DNA of 64,000 bases from Cymbomonas tetramitiformis (lineage: Eukaryota; Chlorophyta; Pyramimonadophyceae; Pyramimonadales; Pyramimonadaceae): contig LGRX02003698.1 in assembly GCA_001247695.2 (NCBI GenBank), positions 1 to 64,000 on the forward strand. Reading direction: 5' to 3'. Positions 563-52,429 of this stretch are shown one piece after another. The notes below the pieces were generated by a model that ran no database searches, was not told the origin of the DNA, and saw only the letters and a program-made list of their open reading frames with translations. The first letter of the stretch is position 1, and every line of letters starts with the position of its first letter. The position numbers and the translations under genes are program-made.

Positions 563-1588
563 TTAGTTGTCCATGTGCTGCACACCAAATGCATTTGATT
601 GAGCCAAAATGGACTTCGCCATCGTTTCTATCAACATCGAATTAGGTAAAATATATATTAACACCACTACAATACATTGGAGATTTTTGCGGGCAATACC
701 CAAACTCCCAACTTGGTCATTTCGACCCCCTTGGGGTGCCATGTGACAGTACTTGGTGAACTCCGCGGGGCTGCCGTCGCACCTGGCCACCCTGGCTCCT
801 GTCTCCGCATCGAAGATGGTCAGACCGAGCCGGTTGACCGTTCTGATGGGGATGATGTTACAGTTGGCCCCGGTGTCTAGGAGCAGGGCCTTGTATAGCA
901 TGAGTAGTCCACCAGAGGCGACGAGGACCATCCCTTGCGCCAGCGTCTCGTTCAGGAGCTTGCACACGGGCTGGACCTGTGCCATGGCAGTGAGCTGTTC
1001 TTCCGTGAGGCCACTGAGCATCTTCCTCTTCAGTAGCTCGTAGGCTTTGGCCTCCATGGTTCCTGCATGCAGCTCGCCCTTCCCACTGAAGTCCGTCACC
1101 CCGAACCCCTCCTGGATTGTGGCTGCTGCAGCGGTGACGCGCACAGTAGCTCTCCTCTTCCTGGGTTGGTCCACCATGTCCTCCGGCATCTCGTCCAGGG
1201 GAATCTCTTCTTTATCGCTGCCATCACCAGACTCCATTCCTGGGCAGTCGTCATCTTCGTCGTCATCACCATCACCTCCGCCACTGCTCTGACAGTCCGC
1301 TGCTAAGGCTGCTGGCATGGGGAGCTGACCGGTCTCAGCTAGCTCCACCAAAGTCTCCAAACCCCTGGGGGCTGTTATCCTGCCCTCCGCTACGAGCCCA
1401 GCAGCCAGCTTACGGAAAGCCGCGCCCAGACTCTTGATCACAGAGGCCATGAGCTGCACCTTCCTCTGCATCTCGTCCGCTGCCGGCGCCATGGGCACCT
1501 GCGCATCTGCCTCGTACTCCTCGGGTGTCTTCACTGGGAACCCCCGCATGTGTTGAGTGCTACCCAGCGCTACCGCTGGTGCTGCCAC
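563..1588 (-). CDS. Retropepsin-like aspartic protease block of the same element
   Basis: This 341-residue frame has the retropepsin active-site signature LLLDTGANCNII at residues 235-246, with the catalytic Asp in DTG at 238-240. A second conserved patch follows (VNRLGL, ARCDGSPAEF). Upstream are a low-complexity acidic run (GGGDGDDDEDDD, about 103-114) and a basic patch (QPRKRR). The protease would process gag and pol. The listed first codon is a GTG, so the block is probably expressed by frameshift from gag, or not at all. The final ~35 residues look unrelated to protease and coincide with the point where homology to the element stops. Confidence 0.6.
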   Translation of the reverse strand: MAAPAVALGSTQHMRGFPVKTPEEYEADAQVPMAPAADEMQRKVQLMASVIKSLGAAFRKLAAGLVAEGRITAPRGLETLVELAETGQLPMPAALAADCQSSGGGDGDDDEDDDCPGMESGDGSDKEEIPLDEMPEDMVDQPRKRRATVRVTAAAATIQEGFGVTDFSGKGELHAGTMEAKAYELLKRKMLSGLTEEQLTAMAQVQPVCKLLNETLAQGMVLVASGGLLMLYKALLLDTGANCNIIPIRTVNRLGLTIFDAETGARVARCDGSPAEFTKYCHMAPQGGRNDQVGSLGIARKNLQCIVVVLIYILPNSMLIETMAKSILAQSNAFGVQHMDN

Positions 1589-1632
1589 GACCTCGGGCTC
1601 ACCGCCCTTGCTCAGTGCTTCGGGGAGTTCCC

Positions 1633-2877
1633 CTACGAGCCTAAGGCGTTGAGCGCATCTGAGAGCACCTCCTCACCCATCTCTTCAGCCAGTGCTGAGA
1701 GCAAGCTGGCTGGAGAGCCGGATGACACTCCTGGTCCAGTGATCTCGCGGTGGTTCACCTCGTGCGCGTCAGAGATGTACACCTCCCTTTCCGCGACGCT
1801 CGCAGTGACCGGCTCCTCGTCGGAACCCTCGTCCTCGGAGAGGACCTGTGACTCCACGCTGCCAGCACGACTAGCAGTCTTTCGGGCAGCCACCATGCCT
1901 TGATACTCAGCCTTCAGTGCGTCTGAGTTACCAGTTGGACTCTTCTGTTTGTCTGCTGGTGGCGGCTTAGCACGGCACTTGTCCTTCTCATCATTGGACA
2001 GCTGCTGCCAGTCGGTCACCAGAATGCCCCAGTCGGAGCTCTTGAAGCGATTCTTCAAGTTGTACATCCTCAAGGCGGCGTTCTTGGCATCCCACCACTT
2101 GCTGGACCCAAGCCTACTCTCGTGGTACCCCGCTGGCATCTTGGCATGTTTGTAGCCACTTCTGCACTGCTCGGGATCAGACTCATGCCAGCCTCCTCCA
2201 AAGCAGCGGAGACACTTGGGCTTGTCGTTGGTACGACTGCCCTCTGCCGGTGGAGGTGTCTTGTTGTACGCAGGCTTCTTGGCTCTCTCGGCGACGTTCA
2301 CTTCCTTCTTCATCTTTTTCGCAGGCGATGTATCCGCCTTCTTGCTGTTCTCGAGTTCTCCTGACTGTCCTTCCCCGGCTGACTCTATCTTCTTGATCGA
2401 GTTCTTGATGGCCTTGAGGTCGAGGCCACCATGCTGTCGGGCTTCCCAGGTGGAGTACTGGCAGCCACATCGCCTAGTGATCTCCTGCAGGAAGGTGAGG
2501 ATCCAGGACTCCGCATCGCTCTTGAGCTTGTCCTGCACCTCGATGATGGCCTCCAGGTCCTTCCAGGTCACCCGGTTGGGTGGCGGGAACTGAGCCCTCA
2601 GCTGTTCTTTCACACGCGTCTGGAAGATCTTGATGCGGAGGTTCTCGACGCAGTCCTCAATGAAGGTACGCAGAGCCTCGTCGCTCAGCACCTTCCCGGT
2701 GTTGAGCTGCATTTCCCTGCGTTGACACATCTTCATATACGTTAGACCATTTTGCCCCAGTTCTTGGGGCTTCTGGGTCAACAGATCAACTTTTCCCTGT
2801 GTTCCCTTCATCATGAATTTCCTGTCAAGCGCAGCAATGAAGCCCCTGAGGGCGTATAAATACTGCGTGTTGCCCAT
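1633..2877 (-). CDS. Retrotransposon gag body with zinc-knuckle-like motif
   Basis: This 414-residue open frame holds the capsid-like part of a Ty3-type gag. Residues 1-130 are helical and rich in charged and aromatic residues (RREMQLNTGKVLSDEA, NRVTWKDLEAIIEVQDKL). A lysine-rich linker follows at about 175-220, then a cysteine/histidine cluster with C222, C225, H231 and C238, which resembles but does not match the CCHC knuckle. The C-terminus is acidic. Gag would assemble particles and bind the element RNA. It lies between frame-shifted gag N-terminal sequence on its right and the protease block on its left, so it is probably no longer made as one protein. Confidence 0.6.
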   Translation of the reverse strand: MGNTQYLYALRGFIAALDRKFMMKGTQGKVDLLTQKPQELGQNGLTYMKMCQRREMQLNTGKVLSDEALRTFIEDCVENLRIKIFQTRVKEQLRAQFPPPNRVTWKDLEAIIEVQDKLKSDAESWILTFLQEITRRCGCQYSTWEARQHGGLDLKAIKNSIKKIESAGEGQSGELENSKKADTSPAKKMKKEVNVAERAKKPAYNKTPPPAEGSRTNDKPKCLRCFGGGWHESDPEQCRSGYKHAKMPAGYHESRLGSSKWWDAKNAALRMYNLKNRFKSSDWGILVTDWQQLSNDEKDKCRAKPPPADKQKSPTGNSDALKAEYQGMVAARKTASRAGSVESQVLSEDEGSDEEPVTASVAEREVYISDAHEVNHREITGPGVSSGSPASLLSALAEEMGEEVLSDALNALGS

Positions 2878-3659
2878 AGGTGCCGTCTTGACCCGTCAAC
2901 CCTTTTAGCGAAGTTCCGTTAGTCAGATACTCATCGGAAACCTCTCCTTGGGCGTCTTGGGCCGTTGCTGGTCTCGCTATCACCCACGTAGCACCAGCAT
3001 TCATTTCATTAAAGGGGGGCCTAGCGCATGGGATAGAACCCTCGAGTGAGCCATGTGAGCTGGTGTCCTTGAGGACTCTATCCATGTTTCGAAGCCACTA
3101 TACCCCCGCTTTCATAGTTCTCACGCCACCAGCTGAGGCTTTGTGAGTTTTCGCCAGCTAGACATGCGGGGATGATGTCCCACAATGTCTCAAAGTCAGG
3201 TGGTGTCTCTCTCAGGGCTTTCTTTTGCGCCTCAGTGAGATTAGCGTTCGCCACAGACCTGAGTTTCTTCCTGATGCTGGCGTTGTGCTGGCGGACGAAG
3301 TTCTCGCACATGAGGGCGAATTCCCTCAGGAACTTAGGCCGGTCTTCCTCCTTGGTGCCCGTGTATATGGGCAGAGTTCCAAGGGCAAGGCGAGTGGAGT
3401 CACTGTACTCCATCTCCTCCTCAAATATCACTAAAGGCTCCGGGGCTCGGACCTCAGGCTGAACTGGGGCTTGGCCCTCAGGCTGACCTCCGGTTGTTGC
3501 TTCCTCTTCTTCCAGCTCTGTAAAGTGCTGGCTCACCCGCACCGCTCTCTGGGTACGTCTTTCCGCTCTTTGCTGCTTCTGGCGATCAGTATTCGACTCC
3601 GTTGCTATTTTCCCGGCAGTGAGAAGGTCCCAATGTGAAAGCCCCTTTCACTCTACACT

Positions 3660-4310
3660 TCCAAGCTTACCAGTACGGATATCCGTCCCTGGTATCACCT
3701 TTCAGTGCTTCGCTCTAAGGGACAAACACTGCAAGGAGGTACTCGCTCATAAATTAAGTGTTGAGTCTTGCGGGTAATTCGCTCCCTGTTCTTCTCCACT
3801 CCTTCCAGATAGCCAGCACAGTTGCTTTCACTTTCAGTGTCCCTGGTCAGTGCTGTGCTTCAGCAGGATGCCATCTCCCAGAATAAGCCAGAATGCCGCA
3901 ATGACCGCTGCTGTGATAATAACCACTGACAATCCCGTTTCGCTCTACGCCTTCAGGCGTACCAGTACGGATAAATCCGTCCCTGGCTTTACCGTCCGGT
4001 GCTTCGCTCCAGCAGGCTGCCATATCCCAGAATACTCCAGAATGACATTCTCAACGCTGTCACCATATCGAATAATGAGCCTCCGGTTCCGTTCTACGCC
4101 TTCAGGCGTACCAGTACGGATAAATCCGTCCCTGGCTTTACCATCCAGTGCTTCGCATCACCGGGATAGCCCAGGATACGCTCATAATCGCTGTTGCTGT
4201 GTCTTGCCAGGCTGCTGAACCTCGAGTGTCACAACAGTCTGCTTCCCTCAACCTCTTCCAAGCTTACCAGTACGGATAAATCCGTCCCTGGCTTCACCCT
4301 TTGGAAGCCT
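3660..4310. repeat. Four copies of a 25-bp hairpin in the retroelement leader
   Basis: The imperfect palindrome CCAGTACGGATAAATCCGT followed by CCCTGG occurs at about 3669, 3961, 4110 and 4266. In two copies (3938-4020 and 4090-4165) the surrounding ~70 bp, including TACGCCTTCAGGCG before it and CAGTGCTTCGC after it, is also repeated. The first and last copies share a different left flank, CCAAGCTTACCAG. The array sits just upstream of the reverse-strand gag, where an LTR or RNA leader would be. Confidence 0.7.
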
Positions 4311-4399: not shown

Positions 4400-7300
4400 A
4401 CAGTTCTGACACTATCACGCAATCGCAAGTACAACAAATGTACAACTTCACAAGGAAAAGAATGTCATATATCATGAATCTTTATATCATAACACTGCTG
4501 TTTTCGCGGTCTGAGCGAGCACTTCCTATTTTCGGACCCACTGTTGCGAAGGCAAAACAAAAATGAGCGTCTGCCTCACCCTGCTACGCCGCCCTACTTA
4601 TTCTCGCTATCTCCAAACAAGTGTAACACCCAGCCGTATTTCCGTATCTCGTCACTGTCATAACTACTCGCGCGTATCGTACTGCGCGTGTCATACGTTC
4701 GTCACAGAGACTGCTGTCGCAAGTGTCACAACCCGGCTAAGGTACACGATAAGCCGTGGTTTGTGACAGGTTGGCATACACATGCGTATACCAACAGTGC
4801 AACATAGATTGATTTGCAGAGGATTAAAAAGTAAGAGCTTATCTGTAAACCATCGTGTAGTTCTGTTGATCGATTCGATGGCGATCTGTCCGCGCCTAAC
4901 CGACCATGGGCTTGTACCCCATGGAACCGGGGGTTTATCCAGCAATACACCTATATCACACTGCAACATGCATATCACATATACATGCTAGATCTTGCAA
5001 GTATAGGCTATATTGAAATCCAAATGGTATAAGGTGCCAGTCTTGGTCATTAAGACAGGGATTAGCTCAGTTATCCCTGACGGAGGATTTGGGATGGAAT
5101 AATTGTTCTCCTGTTTATCAAGATGGAATACACACCGGAGCCACTTGTGAAAATATACCATTCAACTCATCATCCATCATGATGAGAAGTGCAGGATTAC
5201 AACAGTATACTAACTATATTGATATGCATCATACTTGCTATATGCTGTCCAGTGGTATACAGACTAACTTGTATGATTAATCACTATCAATTTGCTTAAG
5301 TGTACTAAATCAGTAAGTACCTGCACAATACACAAGTCACTGACATTACTATTCATGCTGACATTACACTGAGTCAGTAAGTGTATATGATCAAGTATAA
5401 ATCAACATCACATGTATGATGCATAGATACCATCCAACAAACACATGTGCGTGTTGGATGTCAGTGATGGCGATAGATAAGGGAACAGGATCAATCCACA
5501 TGCTGAAGGGCTGGATGGAGAATATCTCCAGGCCCGAAGGCAGTATACAGTGTTCACAAAACAGTTGGTCACTGCTGAACACTGTCCATGCCCCTTTCAC
5601 TCTATCGCTGGAGCAGCACCATCATCTACTATGCATTTGACAGTTGATTCAAAACCTGATCACTTCAAAGCATATTTCAATAAATCACACAGATCAGAAC
5701 TCATCTTGACAGTGATGTAGCTGATATAGGTATTTAAACATACACTGCTCTAATTGTTCAAGCATTGTTCTGGTTTACTTAGAAACTGAAGATATCATTT
5801 TGATACTCTTCCCGTGCACCGCCACATGCCTAAGTAGATGATAATTATATGATTACTATGAGCATTTGCTCAAGTTACTTAGTATCTGGATGACACTACC
5901 ATCCAGAGTATTGTCATGGATCCGAAGAGATAAAGAAGACCTCCAGCATACCCATTCGTGGGTAGGCAACGTGATCAACAGCCAAGGACAGGCGACCGAA
6001 CCGAGGAGTGATCTCGCCGGAAGCTATTAGCTAAGGTTATCTAAGGAATTGACAACCCTGAGTAAGTAATAAATCAACTGACAAGTTATCACTTAAGTGA
6101 CTGCAAGTCACTATTGATAAATCTACATATAAGTACCGTATTAGGGTTTGGTCTGTTTATCATGGGTTTCAATCGGCAAAACCCCAAATGATGGCCATGC
6201 ACATATCTTCACAGAACACCATAAAAAAATATCAATTTCAATTTCATGGGTGCGAGTGAGATATATTACAGAGTTGTGACAGATGTATACATTATGGTAT
6301 ACACTGGGGCTTACATATATATATATGCCGCGATAAGCCAAAAGTGACAGAAATAGGTGAAAATCTCACACGTTAGATTTCAAAATGAAAATTTGAGTCC
6401 AATTTTTTTCGCGGATCCAAATTTTCACCTATTAAGGTATATGGGGGAAATACCTGAGCACTTCACATCTCGTGTAACTCCCTAAAAATCGTGTGCAAAA
6501 ACTTAGGGTGTAACATACACCTCAGGGATCACATGATTAACAGTGACATGCTGAATGCAGTTTTGCTTCTTTCCTTCAGAAAAACATGCATACTGCTCAA
6601 TTTATATATAATAGGTGTTACTGATATCATGAAACACCCTAATATCACTGTAGATGATTAGGGTCATGGTAACGCGTAACACCCTGAAATGCCACGAAAT
6701 ACTAGTGAACAACACTGTATTTGGCATAATGGTCATGCTGAAATCAGCACATGCATGACTGATATTTCGGGCAACAACCCAAGAACTGCGTATAACTGCT
6801 TCCTATAAGGATTGCATGCTACCTAATGAAGTATTTAGGCACTTAACAACTGCCTGGTAATTCACTCTTCCTCGAAGGGGGAAGTAAAGTGAAATGTTGA
6901 TGAGATATACGCACATATCCGAGAAGTTATTTATAACTTATATAGATTCAGGATTAATATGTGATGATACCGATATGGTGATTTCTGATGGATTGCTTTT
7001 GATAAGACCACTGCATCCACAAGTAACGTTGAAATCTGTACAACGTTAAACCCACCGTCACTAATAAAGTGTAAAATCGGATGGGAAACTACATCCCAAT
7101 GACTATAAGCTGACTTGCTCAGCATTTACATTTTCGAGTAAGGGCGGAATGCTTAACTATATATATAACACATAACTTGATACCATGCTTAATTGCACAT
7201 CATTGGATCAGAAGATGATAGTTATATAATATATATATATCCCGCCTGATTCAGTTTGGCACTATAGCCATACATAAGAGTGGGAAGGACAGGTGCATCG

Positions 7301-9130
7301 CTGCAGGACTGGTTGATATAATCCCAGTACGGAAGGCAGGATGTGGCACCCGAATAACAGCTGATAACTGTTGGGTGACCACCATGCAAAACCTTCCAGG
7401 CGTAACTCCTTCGTCCTCGGATGTAGGTGACCTGTTCATACGATATGTTGACATCACATAAAAGCATTCTGAGGAATCCCCTGTATATTCATATGCGTTG
7501 TCATCACTGTAAATGACATGGGGTTCGAATCGTCGCAACAGCTGCTGAGATTATTCCTCCGGCTGGATTGCAATCATTCACAATCCCTGTACATTCCGGT
7601 GACAAATGTTTGCACTGGACTGATCACCAAATTTGGTATAATCTGTGATATATAAATAATCAGAAAAAGCGTTGCAATCAGTACAACGCTGTCTAAACTC
7701 ACAATACGAGTAATAAATTTCCTCAGATGTAATGGTATAAGGGCAATATGACCCGTGCCGATGACGTGGACACATTCCATACAACCCCCGGTACGAGCGG
7801 ACAAGGTTGGTTGCCACGACACCACATCGTCATCTGAAATCAGTAAATCATTCAGAGAGAAGGTGTTGACATCAGTACAACACCATTATACATATAGTCA
7901 TGAAGAGTTTAAAGAAGACACAGTTCCTCCGGTATTGACAACATGGTACACATATTACCATGCTCTCCGATTATATATTTGATATCCCACAGCATACGAT
8001 GATAATAATAGCAAACCACTTCGCCGCTGGGGGGTAGTGTTGTATTTTGTACAGCACATACATGGGCACTATGTGACCCACGCAGATGACGTGAATTCGG
8101 GCTGCATCCCAAGAACTGCGATGCACCTTAGGTGCAATGGGCTGCATCCCGAGAACTGCTATCCAGCTTCTTCCTAAGCTACCACGTCATCACATCTGAG
8201 GTCGGACCTCTGTTGTATTTAAACGGCGCCTGACAACCGCCTAGCAATTTTCACTTCCTTGAGGGGGGAAGGTGACACGCTAAAAAAATACAACTAAAAA
8301 CCAAATAACTAATAAAGACAAATAATAAAACAAGTAAGTTGCATCATCGTTGATTGTTTTGGTAATCGTGACTATATATAGTCAAACCATGCAGAGCTCC
8401 ATGAAGTTGACACACATATGTATCGAAAATTTCCAAGGTCATCAGCCATGACGTACATATGAGCTTGATTTTGAAGACCTAGACATTTGTATACATCTGG
8501 TCTAGCATGTATCCAGACTAGAATTGTATATTGATTCGGTGCAAGCACTATAGCCTCTGCCACCGATGATCACGGAAAAAGGGCAACCATTCTTGATATT
8601 TCATACATATCATCTGATTGGATCATTAAAGGTGTCAAGAGTACTCAATGCAATATGCAGGCTACGGCCTGAGTACAACACCTAGATAGGTCAAAGCCAC
8701 CGAGCTGACCAATGCAGCATAAATGCTAGCTGCCTTTGAAGGCTACATAACAAGTCTATTGTCCTTATGTCTTGAAATGTATCCGTGTAGTGGCATCTCT
8801 TTGAGGTAGTCATGCATGTTGAATAAGCCACACCGGTCATCTTATCTTCATTGGTCATTACATATCTGATCATACCGCCATTGAACAATGCCTATTCTGT
8901 GAAATTATTATATCACGAGGCATTTCGGTAGTGCACATAAAAAAAATATACAGTGCATATTTGTTTCTACTCTTTATAGAGACACTCTGCTCTCATTCGC
9001 CAGTTCTTTCAGCTTAGCAGAGATCATCTGATCAGCTCTTCATCCGACCTTCTAAGGTTGAGTTGTTTGTCAGATGTATTGATTTATCGGACACCACATC
9101 TCAGAGGTCTATCCATCATGAAAGACAGAG
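4400..9130. other. AT-rich non-coding region with retroelement debris
   Basis: I find no supportable gene here; the open frames are short and lack recognisable domains. Three diverged copies of a non-coding block can be made out: a 22-bp motif of the type GGGCTGCATCCCAAGAACTG (6769, 8099, 8139) followed 70-130 bp later by ATTTAG..CTGACAAC-like text and a purine-rich run (AAGGGGGAAG at ~6876, GAGGGGGGAAGG at ~8261). Purine tracts in this position resemble polypurine tracts next to a 3' LTR. Confidence 0.45.
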
Positions 9131-46785: not shown

Positions 46786-47372
46786 AACTCGGTTCATACG
46801 TAGGCTGAAATTCAGTTCATACGTAAGCCAAAAATTCGGCTCATGTGTAGGCTGAAATCCACCTCATACGTAGCCTGAAATTCAGCTCATACGTAGTCCG
46901 AAATTCAGCTCGTGTGCAAGCCCAAACTCAGCTCATATGTTAGTAGGCTGAAATTCAGCTCATACGTAGGCTGAAATTCAGTTCATACGTAGACTGAAAT
47001 TCACCTCATGTGTAGGCTGAAATTCGGCGTCATATGTAGGCTGAAATTCAGCTCATATATGTCGCTTGACATTTAGCTCATATGTAGGCTGAAATTCAAC
47101 TCATATATATGCAGTCTGAAACTTGGCTCATATGTAGGCTGAAATTCAGCTCATGTGTAGGCTGAAATTCAGTTCATACGTAGGCTGAAATTCAGCTTCG
47201 TAGGCTGAAATTCTGTTAATATATGTCGCTTGATATTTAGCTCATAATATGTAGGCTGAAATTCAGTTCATACGTAGGCTGAAATTCACCTCATGTGTAG
47301 GCTAAAATCGGCGTCGTATGTAGCTTGAAATTCAGCTCATATATGTCGGTTGACATTCAGCTCATATATGGA
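46786..47372 (+). repeat. 23-bp satellite-like array, ~25 copies
   Basis: The consensus is GTAGGCTGAAATTCAGCTCATAC. Its core GCTGAAATTCAGC is an almost perfect palindrome. Some units are replaced by ATATGTCGCTTGACATTTAGCTC variants at regular places, which suggests a higher-order unit of 6-8 repeats. Confidence 0.9.
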
Positions 47373-47678
47373 ACGTATCGTTCGCCCAAAACGCTGCAGA
47401 AGGCACGAAAGTGAGGGCTACGACTGAGCGCGAAGTGTTTGAGGTCCAATATGACGAAAAGCACATACTCCACGTGCTTTTCCATAGCCTGCGCGCAACT
47501 CCAGGTCGATATCATTATCCACAAATAAAATGATAAGGTGAGGAAATATGCGTGGGAGATCGACAGGTGTAACTACCTGGGTGAAGGAGTACAGTTCAGT
47601 GATGGTGTCATCAGCATCCACACGCAGTCGACTGTGAGAGGAAGCCAAGCGGGCCTTCGCGTGCTCAGCGGCGTGGTA

Positions 47679-47774
47679 GGTAGGCTATTTAATTTAGATT
47701 ATTTCTTTATGATTTTAGATTAACCCATTTTCATGTTGATTTTAGATTAAATTTTTTTGATGTCATCCGGGTAT
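47679..47774 (+). repeat. Left terminal inverted repeat
   Basis: It aligns with the complement of 51333-51434 over its whole length, sharing TAGATTATTTCTTT, GATTTTAGATTAAC, CATTTTC.TGTTGATTTTAG and TTGATGTCATCCGG. The right copy has about 10 extra bases (GTGGCATGTA) in the inner third. Confidence 0.9.
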
Positions 47775-47849
47775 TACCGGTGCATGCATCCATGACATCG
47801 AAATATTACACAAAAGAGTTGTCGCGTAGCCAAACGAGAGGAAAGTAAC

Positions 47850-48722
47850 ATGGCTGAGCCCGACGGCTGTGAGTTCACAAGCCCGGGTAAAAGTGTGGAG
47901 GATATATATCATTCAGATGAAGAGGAAGAAGAGGACTTCCTCGTTACACCAATGGGAAAGTCGAAACGTACCCGTGTCCCCTTAGTGTGGAGTACGGTCC
48001 TCAATGGTGTATCGTATGTAGAGTGCACAGAGAAGATGGAAACCTTGAGCCTCGAGGGTGTGACCAAGTCTGGCAAGGATTATAGGTCGAAAAAAAACGG
48101 TTCCGTGACTCAAAACTTCAGGTGTGCTTTACAGCATACACACGGTTGTCAAGTTTACTATAAAATTGTCAAGGGAACGACCTTATGCCCTACTATTACA
48201 TGCAACTTGTACACCCGTGGGACACACGACCATACTAATTTCACAGGAAAGGGTATGTCGAAAGATTTAAAGGACAAGTGTAAGGAGGCGATCAAGGAAA
48301 AGCTTCCGCCTAAAGCCATTTTTAAGAAGCTTAGTACCGCAGTCACCACAGCCATGGAAGCCGATGACGACGTTGATTACAAGGTCATAAAGAACTTTGT
48401 GTACAACAATCGCAAACAAATCTTGGGGCTTAAAACCATAAAGACTTGCGGTCAGTTCATGGAGGTTTGCCAGACCTCCAACTTGTTGGCCATCCCCGTG
48501 ACCGATCGCAAAACGGCGGGGACGCTTTGCATGTTTGAAGGACAAGTACTCGAACCGAGCGGCTTCGAAACCGTGGAACATTACGTCGAGAATTCCGCGA
48601 ACACCCTGCCTCATATTCCTTATATATACAGGCGTTCCTTAGATATACGACGGGCAACACCCCATACCTACGACTCCAGTTATTACACACGCTATTTGGC
48701 GGGAGGCGCTACGCGGGGGTGA
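47850..48722 (+). CDS. Zinc-finger protein with GCM/WRKY/FLYWCH-like C2H2 motif
   Basis: The ATG at 47850 follows the left TIR by about 75 bp. After an acidic N-terminus (HSDEEEEEDF) comes KDYRSKKNGSVTQNFRC, then C100 and later GTHDHTN: C92-x7-C100-x25-H126-x-H128. This is the zinc-binding pattern of the WRKY-GCM1/FLYWCH fold that many Mutator transposases carry at their N-terminus. A lysine-rich helical segment follows (MSKDLKDKCKEAIKEKLPPK). The frame stops at 48722, but a different frame continues with IWREALRGGEQAIKEGQLAL and then ASIRPTDSGLEV to a stop at 48912, so the protein is probably frameshifted or spliced near 48640. I cannot identify a catalytic domain; DNA-binding is the inferred role. 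Confidence 0.65.
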   Translation: MAEPDGCEFTSPGKSVEDIYHSDEEEEEDFLVTPMGKSKRTRVPLVWSTVLNGVSYVECTEKMETLSLEGVTKSGKDYRSKKNGSVTQNFRCALQHTHGCQVYYKIVKGTTLCPTITCNLYTRGTHDHTNFTGKGMSKDLKDKCKEAIKEKLPPKAIFKKLSTAVTTAMEADDDVDYKVIKNFVYNNRKQILGLKTIKTCGQFMEVCQTSNLLAIPVTDRKTAGTLCMFEGQVLEPSGFETVEHYVENSANTLPHIPYIYRRSLDIRRATPHTYDSSYYTRYLAGGATRG

Positions 48723-48912
48723 GCAAGCAATTAAAGAAGGTCAACTGGCTTTAGTTTTTTCCGCGTTAGCTTCAATCCGACCTACAGACAGCGGGCTCGA
48801 AGTATGCTGTGATAGGCATAATACAATTGTAGCTTACGACGCATGGGTAGACGAAATGTTTTATTCAATACAGTCGCCAACACTCTCCGATAGATATATG
48901 CCAACCTACTGA
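48640..48912 (+). pseudogene. Continuation of the zinc-finger protein in another frame
   Basis: Frame +1 relative to the upstream gene is open from just after a TAG at ~48639 and reads IYDGQHPIPTTPVITHAIWR, then EALRGGEQAIKEGQ, LEVCCDRHNTIVAYDAWVD, and a stop at 48910-48912. It overlaps the end of the upstream frame by about 80 nt. A one-base frameshift or a very short intron would join the two; no convincing splice pair was found. Confidence 0.5.
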
Positions 48913-48931
48913 ACCCATAGGGCAAAACAAT

Positions 48932-49823
48932 GTGAACGCGGAGGTTGCGAGATGCGACGAGATTGAACCGTATGAAACAACGGAGCGCGTTGTGGACGAC
49001 AATGCGAACGACAATGCAAACGACGACAACGCGAGCAAGTTGTTTCCGAAACGAAAACGGAGTGCGTTGTCAACGAGGTGTGCTCCTCTGAAAAATTTAC
49101 CATTTAAAATAACGATACCAAGGGTATGATTGTGATAAAGGCACTAGTTTTTATCCCACAATCGCACAACAATACACGCCTCTATTAGCAGTTATTGGCA
49201 ATTTGTTTCACGGAAAAGAAATTGGCGATTTTTGCTGCGGTAAGGGACCTCGCTACGTTTACAACAACCTAGTTCGGTTCAAACCGAAGACGATCTTTCT
49301 GAGCGATAAGCATCCTGCGAAAGGCATAAGACGCCTAGACTTAGAGAAAATCAAGTGGGAAGAATTCAACCCGCAAGTAGACATCATAATATCGTCCTTG
49401 CCATATGCAAGAGGGAAGTGCGAACCTTTGTTAGCTGCGTGTCTTCAATCCAACGCCACGATCGTGTGTTTGAAGCTATTGCATTCGTTCGAACGTCCTG
49501 TGGTGGGGGATAGTAGAGCTAGTGCGTTCCAAAGGCTTGGCTTAAAGATTTTGCTACCGCCTGCAAAGTATCCGGGGTTCGGCCGTAGTTTAGGAGAAGT
49601 TGAAGCCTGGTATATTTTTTTCAACTTAGCGACAACAAAAGATTTACTAAAGAAAAGTGTCAGTGAGTTTCACAACTTGTTGTACGAAGACAGAGGATAC
49701 CCGGAAAGTGCTGGGAGCGTACCTTTTATTTATTCTGGCGTAGAGCACAACGTTGCATCTTTCAAGGATCGAGGACTTATTTTGTGGGATTCGCGGAAAC
49801 AGGCGGCCGGTGCTAATAATTGA
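48932..49823 (+). CDS. DNA methyltransferase-like protein with SLPY catalytic motif
   Basis: The conserved part (frame of 49203-49823, open from 49113) reads YPTIAQQYTPLLAVIGNLF and then EIGDFCCGKGPRYV (SAM motif I), TIFLSDKH (acidic strand 2), RLDLEKI, VDIIISSLPYARG (motif IV) and LLPPAKYPGFGRSLGEVEAW followed by YIFF. The order and the late aromatic patch match phage-type N6-adenine methyltransferases (family pattern 'D.VVTNPPY...llR...YAWFVW'). Motif IV is SLPY instead of NPPY/DPPY. The N-terminal part (48932-49129, acidic, KRKRSALSTRCAPLKN) is one base out of frame at ~49121 (PFKITIP then GYDCDKGTS), so this copy is frameshifted or edited. No ATG opens the catalytic frame. It lies between the zinc-finger and dioxygenase genes, same strand. 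Confidence 0.6.
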
Positions 49824-50071
49824 TAACCAAAGGTTGAAGGTACTACTCACGGAATTTGAAGCAACTTTGCATGCACAAACGTGCAAGATAATAGAGCGTG
49901 GCTGCGCAAACGAGGCAAAAGGCAAGAAATGAGGGAAGGAGGGTTGGAATGTTGGGTGGTGGTTTAACATGGGGAGAACAGTGCAGCAAGAGGGGTTTTG
50001 TCCTAAGCTAGATGGAACATGCATGTGCTTTCGGGACGCCCCACCCTTGGCACAAGAAAAAAGGTGTTTAC
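49824..50071 (+). promoter_or_regulatory. Spacer between methyltransferase-like and dioxygenase-like genes
   Basis: About 250 bp without conserved coding potential, so the two genes probably have separate transcripts or form one spliced transcript. No clear TATA box is seen. Confidence 0.25.
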
Positions 50072-50509
50072 ATGGACGATCCGCTAACAAGTGCAAGCAA
50101 GCCGTATTGGAAGAAAGAACTTTACATCCTTGCAGGTCAAATCTTAGAAATAATAGACGCGGATTACAAGAGAGACGGCGATTGGTGCTTGTATGTGTCG
50201 TGCATGCTAGCCGGTAAGTGCGAGGTGAAGCGACACGAGGACAGAAAAGATGTGTCACATCAATACATCATCTTTCTTGGAAACTACAAGAACGCGGTTT
50301 TGGAGATGGAGTCGCCTAGAGAGGATAGCAAGGACACCCTTCTCCAATTCTCTGAAAGCCATAAGGTTTTAAAGTGCGATGCGCGGTGCAAACATAGAGT
50401 AGCATCTGAAGGTTTTGAGGGAGTGCGCTATTGCGTTACTTTATACAAAATGTATGACAGGCGTCTAACCAAACCAGCCCCGGTGTATTGGCCACCACAT
50501 TATATTTAA
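50012..50509 (+). CDS. 2-oxoglutarate/Fe(II) dioxygenase-like protein
   Basis: The best start is ATG 50072 (MDDPLTSASKPYWKK), residue 21 of the longer frame. The core has the double-stranded beta-helix signature: H75-E-D77 in CEVKRHEDRKD (HxD), the strand YIIFLGNYKNAVLEM, the distal H128 in CDARCKHRVASEG and the 2-oxoglutarate-binding R139 in GVRYCVTLYK. This is the HxD...H...R set in the family's usual order and spacing. The protein is short (about 145 residues), close to a bare catalytic core. TET/JBP oxygenases, which oxidise methylated bases, travel with some fungal and algal DNA transposons (KDZ elements), so a base-modifying role is plausible, but no TET-specific insert is visible. It overlaps the convergent minus-strand gene by 4 nt. 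Confidence 0.6.
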   Translation: MEHACAFGTPHPWHKKKGVYMDDPLTSASKPYWKKELYILAGQILEIIDADYKRDGDWCLYVSCMLAGKCEVKRHEDRKDVSHQYIIFLGNYKNAVLEMESPREDSKDTLLQFSESHKVLKCDARCKHRVASEGFEGVRYCVTLYKMYDRRLTKPAPVYWPPHYI

Positions 50510-51330
50510 TGTACAACAGTGGCAGGTGAGTACGCCTTTGCGAGATCACTAGAGTCAACCATAACGTGTTTGCATAGACTCACCCCCGTAATAACGTCTG
50601 AAGCACACCAATCCTGCCTTAAAACATACCCCCTATTGTGCACAGTTAGTAGTTCTGAAGCACAACTTGCACATAGTTTGCCAATAGTGTTTCCACATCG
50701 CCTAATTGTAAGCATAGCGCCCGCTGAGCAATGGTGGACGCTACGGTGCTCCCTAGTAGCTAATAGTGATAACCAATACAAGAATCGAGCCATGTATGAC
50801 ATGTTTTTTGCCCGGTTGTATAACACCGATAAGAAAGGTTGCATAATATCGTCGAGTTGCCACCCTGCAACATGGTTAGTGTAGTGAAACAAGGGAAACG
50901 ACCCAGAGAACAAGTGTCGCTGGCACGGTGAATATCCCCAGTTCCCACGTGAAGGTATAACCCCTCCCCAAGGCATACCCTCCGTGTATTCGAGATACAC
51001 GTAGCGGTTATGAAAGTCCCATATAGGGTTACCGTCACTATCGTCACTCTCCCATAGGTTCACAGTGTCTGTATACTTTAGCCGGAAGCCAGTTTCGACA
51101 TACTCGTTGAATACAGTGCCTTTGAAAGCGGCGGGTTGATAGTGGGGGGCCTTATTTTCAAGCAGAACACGCCGTGAGTGTCTATTACAACGGCGCCCAC
51201 CATTATCACACGCGAGACAAACCTTCTTAAAGCTTTTTGGAGGCTTCCTCATGATGGCAAGCGGGAAATAGAGCGTTTGACCTGTGTGCACATTATTTGA
51301 ACACGAGTCATGAAAAGGACCACCGGTCAT
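50506..51330 (-). CDS. Unknown 274-residue cysteine/histidine-rich transposon protein
   Basis: I do not recognise the family. It begins immediately inside the right TIR and converges with the dioxygenase gene, giving the element a two-sided layout like MuDR (genes reading inward from both TIRs). Near the N-terminus is FKKVCLACDNGGRRCNRHSRR, a CxxC-x6-C-x2-H cluster likely to bind metal. The middle is aromatic-rich (WDFHNRYVYLEYTEGMPWGG). Later cysteines (HHCSAGAML, CASCASELL, LCKHVMV) could form a second site. It is intact over its full length. By analogy with mudrB-type companions it could aid insertion, but nothing in the sequence proves that. Confidence 0.55.
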   Translation of the reverse strand: MTGGPFHDSCSNNVHTGQTLYFPLAIMRKPPKSFKKVCLACDNGGRRCNRHSRRVLLENKAPHYQPAAFKGTVFNEYVETGFRLKYTDTVNLWESDDSDGNPIWDFHNRYVYLEYTEGMPWGGVIPSRGNWGYSPCQRHLFSGSFPLFHYTNHVAGWQLDDIMQPFLSVLYNRAKNMSYMARFLYWLSLLATREHRSVHHCSAGAMLTIRRCGNTIGKLCASCASELLTVHNRGYVLRQDWCASDVITGVSLCKHVMVDSSDLAKAYSPATVVH

Positions 51331-51332
51331 AG

Positions 51333-51434
51333 CCGGATGACATCAAGAAAACTTAATCTACATGCCACTAAAATCAACAAGAAAATGAGTTAATCTAAAA
51401 TCACAAAGAAATAATCTAGATTAAATATTTTCCC
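51333..51434 (-). repeat. Right terminal inverted repeat
   Basis: This is the complementary partner of the left TIR. The start codon of the minus-strand gene (51330) lies only about 3 bp inside it, so the gene's promoter is probably in the TIR, as in Mutator elements. Confidence 0.9.
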
Positions 51435-52429
51435 GGCGTGGTATCGCTTGAGATGTTTAGATAAACCACCAGTTGAGCCCTCAAAGACCTTGAAGGACTT
51501 GGCCTTGCGTTCCCCACATAACTTGCACTGCCACAACTGGCACTTGCTCGACTTGTATGTTCTTATTCTTTCCACGCAATAATGGGATGTGGGTCCCTTC
51601 ACCTACATGGTCGAAATACAGGTATGTAAATCCTTTTGTGGTCCTAGGGGCAGGCACACAAGGGCCCTCAGATACTACGACTGCTGCGTCTGCGGTAGTG
51701 GCACGAATGTATCGAATTTCAGCGTCGCGGTTGTCCTTGAAGGTGTCGTGTCGAAAACGATTCCACTGGTCCAACCTAATCCAATAGCCTTCATGGTTGG
51801 GAGTTTCTGCTACATCCTCCTCAACCTGCACATGAGAGTTTTTTTTTATTTTAATACCAACGTCGCCTCTGCTCAAGGAACAAGCAAGAATCGCAAGATG
51901 TGAATTGAAAAGGTCTATGGGACGAATATTCATACCTGAAACCGGATAGCTTCGGTTTTCGCGGAATTGCCAAATTGTCGACATTTTTGGTACTCAGCAG
52001 CCGTGGATGCGAATAATTTGGCCTTATCGACGGCATCCATGGCATTGAACCAATGCCCTGGAATGTTGATCCGCACATTAAGATCAACTTGTTCTTGACC
52101 AGGATACTTTTTCACAATCCCACATTGTAATGAGGCTTGTTTGGTCGTCTCGTCCCATCGCTGATTCTCATTGCCTTGAGATTGTTGTGCATGGAAATGA
52201 ATCAATGAATGAGGCTCTCCAGCTTCACAATGTTTATACCCGTCCCCCGCCGCCCGAAATCGACACGATGGGTGACGACGTGACGTGGTCCCAAAGCCGT
52301 AACCATCCACGCACCGTGCCAAGGAGAAGGTGTGCCACGTCGAGGCCCACGAGAGTTGTGGCGATCTTCGATTCTGGCTGCAAACCCGACGGGTTGGGGA
52401 GACGGAGCCAGGCAACCCTAGGATCTGTC

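Follow-up and report, generated by a model that had tools for sequence, protein, structure and literature searches.

The window analysed here is a 64,000-nucleotide stretch of the Cymbomonas tetramitiformis genome (contig LGRX02003698.1), and positions 47679-51434 of it hold a 3,756-bp mobile element. On balance, with confidence a little better than even, we read this element as a deleted copy of a ~8.9-kb Mutator-like transposon whose integral methyltransferase (MTase)-like enzyme and two 2-oxoglutarate-Fe(II) oxygenase (2OG)-like enzymes would modify DNA at or near the element, allowing it to escape silencing. A sequence-only reading of the window had proposed an MTase-like and 2OG-like pair on the element. 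The pair proved to be conserved cargo of a family, and the parent additionally carries a second 2OG-like gene (gene B) and genes X and E.

Parent element, gene linkage and selection

The gene order of the ~8.9-kb parent was read from copy L042 (contig C5418): transposase (916 aa, +), X (173 aa, +), B (417 aa, -), MTase-like (441 aa, +), 2OG-like (2OG-1; 253 aa, +) and E (251 aa, -). All six open reading frames (ORFs) are open in L042, whose right end runs into N. Copy L043 (C19314) has both terminal inverted repeats (TIRs) and the target-site duplication (TSD) CGGTAAATT, with MTase and B N-terminally shorter. L045 (C15429) represents a second family with the same genes. Its transposase, MTase, 2OG and E proteins are 51-61% identical to those of the first family, its B-X segment lies the other way round, and it has one more X-like ORF (X2). 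The stretch of L045 examined excludes the left end, and a TIR pair was not established there. X and X2 of L045 are related (hhalign 98.7%); E was rejected as a relative of X (hhalign probability 1.4%). The named homologues of the element proteins are C. tetramitiformis hypothetical proteins.

Linkage of these genes was followed through an assembly of 852 Mb in 25,745 contigs; a published long-read genome of the species comprises 914.3 Mb in 35,945 scaffolds (excerpt of PMC10675990). Our genome searches scored the best candidates only and all counts are lower bounds. Scored places numbered 110 of 935 candidates for the MTase, 150 of 777 for 2OG, 54 of 839 for the transposase and 142 of 495 for gene B, and the match was free of stops at 51/54 transposase and 136/142 gene B places. 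A scored 2OG place lay on the same contig for 60 of the 110 MTase places, and in 60/60 it was directly downstream on the same strand, at offsets of -22 to +198 nt (40 at the identical offset). The remaining 50/110 MTase and 90/150 2OG places lacked a scored partner, though unscored partners are possible. Gene B was scored on the contig of 35/54 transposase places, 34 of them within 12 kb, and was scored near 70/110 MTase places (33 upstream on the opposite strand, 36 upstream on the same strand, 1 downstream).

Between families, dN/dS was 0.15-0.18 for the transposase, 0.19-0.20 for the MTase, 0.09-0.13 for 2OG and 0.21-0.22 for E, at dS values of 1.7-3.5 that are near saturation. For L042 against L045 the ratios were 0.15 (transposase), 0.20 (MTase), 0.13 (2OG), 0.22 (E) and 0.24 (B). 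Near-identical copies were uninformative, L042 against L043 giving ratios between 0 and 3.3 from a handful of changes; dS was saturated in three transposase comparisons that involved copy L044. Because the same gene set recurs in two families 51-61% identical, at dN/dS of 0.09-0.22, the pair is integral rather than captured by chance. Judged from these comparisons, the MTase-2OG pair is a conserved cargo under purifying selection.

The stop-free frames of MTase and 2OG overlap by 77 nt in L042 (reverse strand, 7824-7900) and 41 nt in L045 (7200-7240), and in both copies the 2OG frame has no ATG ahead of a conserved NMGRT. Three predicted gene models (P0003, P0006 and P0007) fuse the N-terminal part of the MTase with the 2OG domain, with GT dinucleotides at two joints. 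MTase and 2OG are perhaps co-expressed, possibly through alternative splicing. A third transposase lineage (L044:492-3206; P0010, 55% identical) has a PHD-like C-terminus by eye; across the 8.6 kb of L044 examined, a nucleotide search with L042 and L043 matched the transposase only.

The window copy and its insertion site

The features of the window copy are as follows.

47670..47678, no strand: left TSD copy GGCGTGGTA, exact match to the right copy
47679..47782, plus strand: left TIR, arms 93% and 90% complementary, recurring in the genome
47850..48621, plus strand: 5' part of the transposase gene, MULE-like (Mutator-like element), with a FLYWCH/WRKY-GCM1-like finger by motif; aligns to transposases P0009-P0012
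48622..48641, no strand: deletion junction 1, ~1.0 kb of the transposase gene gone
48642..48712, plus strand: short internal transposase piece (element positions 964-1034), whose match lies ~1 kb further along in full-length copies
48713..48718, no strand: deletion junction 2, ~4.0-4.4 kb gone, measured on L042, L043 and L036
48719..49823, plus strand: MTase-like gene, 5'-truncated and frame-broken; core ORF 49113-49823 with DFCCG, FLSD and SLPY
49916..50509, plus strand: 2OG-Fe(II)-oxygenase-like gene with HxD..H-x10-R; open part 50012-50509
50506..51330, minus strand: protein E, conserved between element families (ORF and cross-family comparison)
51321..51434, minus strand: right TIR, by arm complementarity
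51435..51443, no strand: right TSD copy, exact match to the left copy

The TIRs and 9-bp duplication seen in the sequence-only reading were confirmed, the duplication being exact and the TIRs measuring ~104-114 bp rather than ~95 bp and being long as in MULEs. Their arms are 93% (47686-47745/51368-51427) and 90% (47743-47782/51321-51360) complementary, and the 9-bp TSD falls within the MULE range of 8-11 bp. Four genes facing inward had also been described. Four ORFs are indeed present, three pointing right and one left, and the copy has two internal deletions. The finger ORF (47850-48722, +; C-x7-C..H-x-H), taken earlier for a separate DNA-binding gene, is the transposase N-terminus. The MTase-like ORF (49113-49823, +) holds GDFCCGKG and SLPY within a gene that is 5'-truncated and frame-broken, and the longer 2OG-like match (49916-50506) has one in-frame TAG, the open ORF with HED..H..R being 50012-50509 (+); the long-read-based assembly may carry indel errors, and some frame breaks are perhaps non-biological.

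Element positions 1-943 match longer copies at 98.6% (C17125) and 94.8% (C5418) identity. The three pieces 1-943, 964-1034 and ~1040-3756 are separated by ~1.0 kb and 4.0-6.6 kb on C17125, C8142 (a contig that stops within the third piece), C5418 and C19314. The gap at junction 2 reaches 6.6 kb against C17125, where extra DNA sits. Lost there are the 3' end of the transposase gene, X, gene B and the 5' end of the MTase gene; with both deletions the copy lacks the greater part of the transposase. On these alignments the window copy is a non-autonomous, internally deleted derivative of the ~8.9-kb parent.

With the element taken out and a single TSD copy kept, the flanks form one minus-strand open frame with no break at the insertion point. 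Since the frame is continuous once the element is removed, the insertion is real and lies inside a former open frame of another gene, probably a transposon gene. This target frame (51390-51602 and 47418-47648, both minus) has a BED-finger-like CKLC..H..H motif, which suggests a hAT-type target. Immediately left of the element, at 47000-47366, are ~23-bp repeated units (GTAGGCTGAAATTCAGCTCATAT-like).

The B-X module

Genes B and X stand apart from the other genes in their divergence. The ~2.1-kb B-X segment, inverted between L042 and L045, is 78.6% identical, against 64-70% for the longer pieces aligned elsewhere. Between these two copies dS is 0.17 for X (dN/dS 0.34-0.37) and 0.76 for B, against at least 1.7 for the other genes. 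L043 is an L042-like element with an L045-like B (L043 against L045: dS 0.13, dN/dS 0.48). Because B and X are much less diverged than the other genes, the B-X module moved between families later, a transfer that resembles the movement of TET/JBP genes between fungal transposons (excerpt of PMC12730594). Palindromic repeats flank the module (L045:2524-5893; L042, reverse strand, 6087-6482), and the palindrome region also matches the interiors of 11/12 short copies of the element (all except L029; see below). The palindrome-flanked B-X segment is possibly a recombination or hopping cassette.

All of these features favour a composite origin, in which B and X shuttle between MULE families as a module of their own, perhaps a nested mobile element, and the ancestral element held only transposase, MTase, 2OG and E. 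Against this, gene B was downstream of the transposase on the opposite strand in every one of the 34 pairs lying within 12 kb, and neither ends nor a TSD of a separate B-X element were identified. We regard a composite origin as a serious prospect, somewhat short of an even chance.

Identity and possible action of the encoded enzymes

For the MTase and 2OG folds proposed in the sequence-only reading, the support comes from invariant motifs and weak structure matches and includes no significant profile match. DFCCG, FLSD and SLPY are invariant in 5/5 aligned MTase sequences, DFCCG and SLPY representing motifs I and IV of class-I SAM methyltransferases. HxD..H-x10-R was found in 6/6 2OG-1 and 2/2 gene B sequences checked. 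In Foldseek searches, which are weak evidence with models of pLDDT ~40, the best 50 of 719 matches to the MTase model included 39 methyltransferases (best E 7e-3), identified by title or, as with KsgA and Dot1L, by the enzyme that the title names; the others were 10 proteins of other kinds and one without a function in its title. For 2OG-1, 16/49 matches were Fe(II) oxygenases of the 2OG superfamily (counting isopenicillin N synthase and ACC oxidase as members), all at E of at least 0.9, and rank 1 was an unrelated protein. Invariant motifs and these weak structure matches suggest a class-I, amino-MTase type protein and a 2OG-Fe(II)-like one.

Under our favoured reading, the transposase would mobilise autonomous and non-autonomous copies alike by cut-and-paste, the parent generating 9-bp duplications on insertion. 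The MTase would add a methyl group to bases of DNA at or near the element, SLPY presumably indicating N6-adenine or N4-cytosine methylation. The oxygenases would remove or further modify host silencing marks, or the MTase's own methyl group, and the element DNA would thereby escape silencing. The transposase carries a PHD finger (PF00628, E 7.7e-12), a chromatin reader type that may read, or steer the element to, chromatin. We infer that MTase and oxygenases most simply form an anti-silencing or self-marking kit, with DNA as the putative substrate of a hypothetical writer and eraser activity. A tentative extension, which we consider rather unlikely, is that the family encodes its own base-modification pathway, in which amino-MTase, two oxygenases and PHD-finger transposase put a modified base on element DNA, hiding it from host silencing or erasing that silencing. 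Phages put modified bases on their own DNA.

Alternatively, genuine and conserved enzymes could have RNA or protein as their target, such as element transcripts, silencing small RNAs or chromatin proteins. The weak MTase fold matches include the RNA methyltransferases KsgA, RlmJ, HEN1 and Dnmt2, plus Dot1L, and among those of 2OG-1 are prolyl hydroxylase and small-molecule oxygenases as well as AlkB. SLPY also resembles the N(L/I)PY of KsgA/Erm enzymes, in favour of this reading. Known transposon-borne enzymes of these types are however assigned to DNA (TET/JBP, excerpt of PMC12730594; Dam-like and DNMT, excerpt of PMC5890265), and we consider action on RNA or protein unlikely.

Several results weigh against reading the element as a Mutator-like transposon with DNA-modifying enzymes, beginning with the near-saturated between-family dS given above. 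No copy examined joins resolved ends on both sides with six full-length frames. SLPY departs from the usual form of motif IV. Neither Pfam nor NCBIfam gave a match above cut-off for MTase, 2OG-1 or gene B, PHROGs searched with MTase and 2OG-1 gave no credible match, and PDB sequence and profile searches gave none for the MTase and 2OG proteins. The AlphaFold models, built from alignments of 4 (MTase) and 7 (2OG-1) sequences, were poor (pLDDT 41.3 and 40.4), and no Foldseek match reached E<=0.001 for either. The transposase had no match to the Pfam MULE profile PF10551, and none of its places is one of the 150 that were scored for PF10551 in this genome. Its hhalign alignments with two Pfam-MULE proteins from that genome were marginal (top probability 0.7-1.5%, P 0.034-0.083; shuffled controls P 0.058-0.68, probability up to 0.9%).

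Across Pfam, PHROGs, NCBIfam and PDB, the PHD finger of the transposase was the only credible relative, and neither 2OG-1 nor gene B drew a TET/JBP Pfam family. The idea of a viral origin for the cargo is unsupported, since no relative was found in viral contigs scanned with two peptide patterns per protein (MTase, 2OG-1, gene B), nor in phages searched by tblastn with the MTase.

Superfamily placement

By motif, the ~916-aa transposase is of the DDE type and comprises a finger, a D..D..CxxH..E core, a SWIM-like CxC..CxC and the PHD finger. D..D..CxxH..E is the motif order of MULEs, and its residues are conserved in P0009-P0012 and L036, as is the Cys/His pattern of the finger. The finger had no Pfam match and matched weakly (E 0.22) a chain of RRS1, a WRKY protein. 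UniProt names P0010 a SWIM-type domain protein. Taken together, the TIR length, the 9-bp TSDs, the motif order and the motifs of finger, SWIM-like and PHD type indicate Mutator or a closely related sister group. TIRs and TSD support the earlier Mutator-like assignment; the missing PF10551 match and marginal alignment lead us to the wording "MULE-like".

The lack of a PF10551 match would be expected if the element belonged to another cut-and-paste superfamily with 9-bp TSDs. We consider this improbable given the ~110-bp TIRs, 9-bp TSDs and D..D..CxxH..E order, and the finger and SWIM-like motif with the UniProt name of P0010. The marginal hhalign alignments also pair DDTYKTN with DATYKTN and, for one of the two proteins, the second Asp regions. 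The PF10551 MULEs of this genome (G000) were rejected as the same family because transposase places are not among them; the 150 scored places (145 over the cut-off) represent other MULE types, some with open frames >1,000 aa.

Copies across the genome

The left end recurs at 96-100% identity in 40 scored places including the window copy, from 1499 first-look candidates. We examined 20 of the 39 other copies, chosen by best left-TIR match. The right end was within reach in 13/20, and 12 of these 13 are 1.75-2.53 kb long. An exact 9-bp duplication flanks 11/13, at 9 distinct sites, in addition to L043. In L038 the duplication matches at 8/9 positions; L023 has none, and its next right end, ~8 kb off, may belong to another element. 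Seven of the 20 lack a right end in the stretch: L025 (C17125) and L036 (C8142) are full-length and the other five show end repeats only. The family is very abundant, and the near-identity of its copies makes it look young. Elements have a CpG observed/expected ratio of 1.02-1.11 against 0.89 for the whole window (8-kb blocks 0.72-1.01), a level compatible with evasion of cytosine methylation and equally with simple youth.

The 12 short copies, ~2 kb long, have the same TIRs but no MTase or 2OG genes. They are not plain deletion derivatives, as the match to the parent covers only 22-33% of the length in 11/12 (62% in L029) and the interiors are mostly different. They are non-autonomous partners that keep the ends, and their foreign interiors indicate that the element ends do mobilise other DNA. 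The sequence-only reading had held that same-TIR copies without the genes would point to chance capture. Such copies exist, and the MTase gene of the window copy is broken, both in favour of functionless, Pack-MULE-style passengers captured from the host. The low parent match made our very small estimate for such an origin marginally less small, but it remains highly improbable and is already largely refuted by the 60 linked MTase-2OG places and the dN/dS of the same adjacent gene set in two diverged families.

Comparison with known systems

Because the family is abundant and gene-less copies with the same ends share the genome with gene-bearing ones, possible self-protection of a transposon by chemical marking of its own DNA is directly testable here. 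Transposons with one epigenetic enzyme are known; no Mutator-type element with an MTase-like and two oxygenase-like genes was found in the literature searched, with Repbase outside that search.

Mutator-like elements with extra genes include SET in Phytophthora MuDR, OTU, PMD and VANDAL (excerpt of PMC6446971). They share with our element long TIRs, a 9-bp TSD and additional ORFs, and their zinc-finger and SWIM-type transposase resembles ours by motif, but no DNA-type methyltransferase or 2OG oxygenase is listed for them in that excerpt, and neither "methyltransferase" nor "dioxygenase" occurs anywhere in the main text of PMC6446971. Rehavkus, in the same excerpt, likewise has a PHD finger in the transposase and a 9-bp TSD. 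Unlike Rehavkus, our element has no minisatellite before the right TIR; the E ORF reaches that TIR in the window and the E frame ends 55 bp before it in L042, leaving no room for one.

DNA methyltransferases occur in retrotransposons, Dam-like in DIRS and Dnmt3 in Symbiodinium and Klebsormidium (excerpt of PMC5890265, whose main text has 0 occurrences of "TET" or "dioxygenase"). Those retroelements likewise encode a methyltransferase, which in K. nitens is under purifying selection, whereas our element is a cut-and-paste transposon. TET/JBP genes are carried by fungal DNA transposons, with transfer between transposon lineages (excerpt of PMC12730594). Our element is similarly a DNA transposon with a 2OG-like oxygenase gene and gene transfer between lineages. 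It differs in that Mutator lies outside the list in that abstract, its oxygenases have no TET/JBP Pfam match, and it adds an MTase-like and a second 2OG-like gene.

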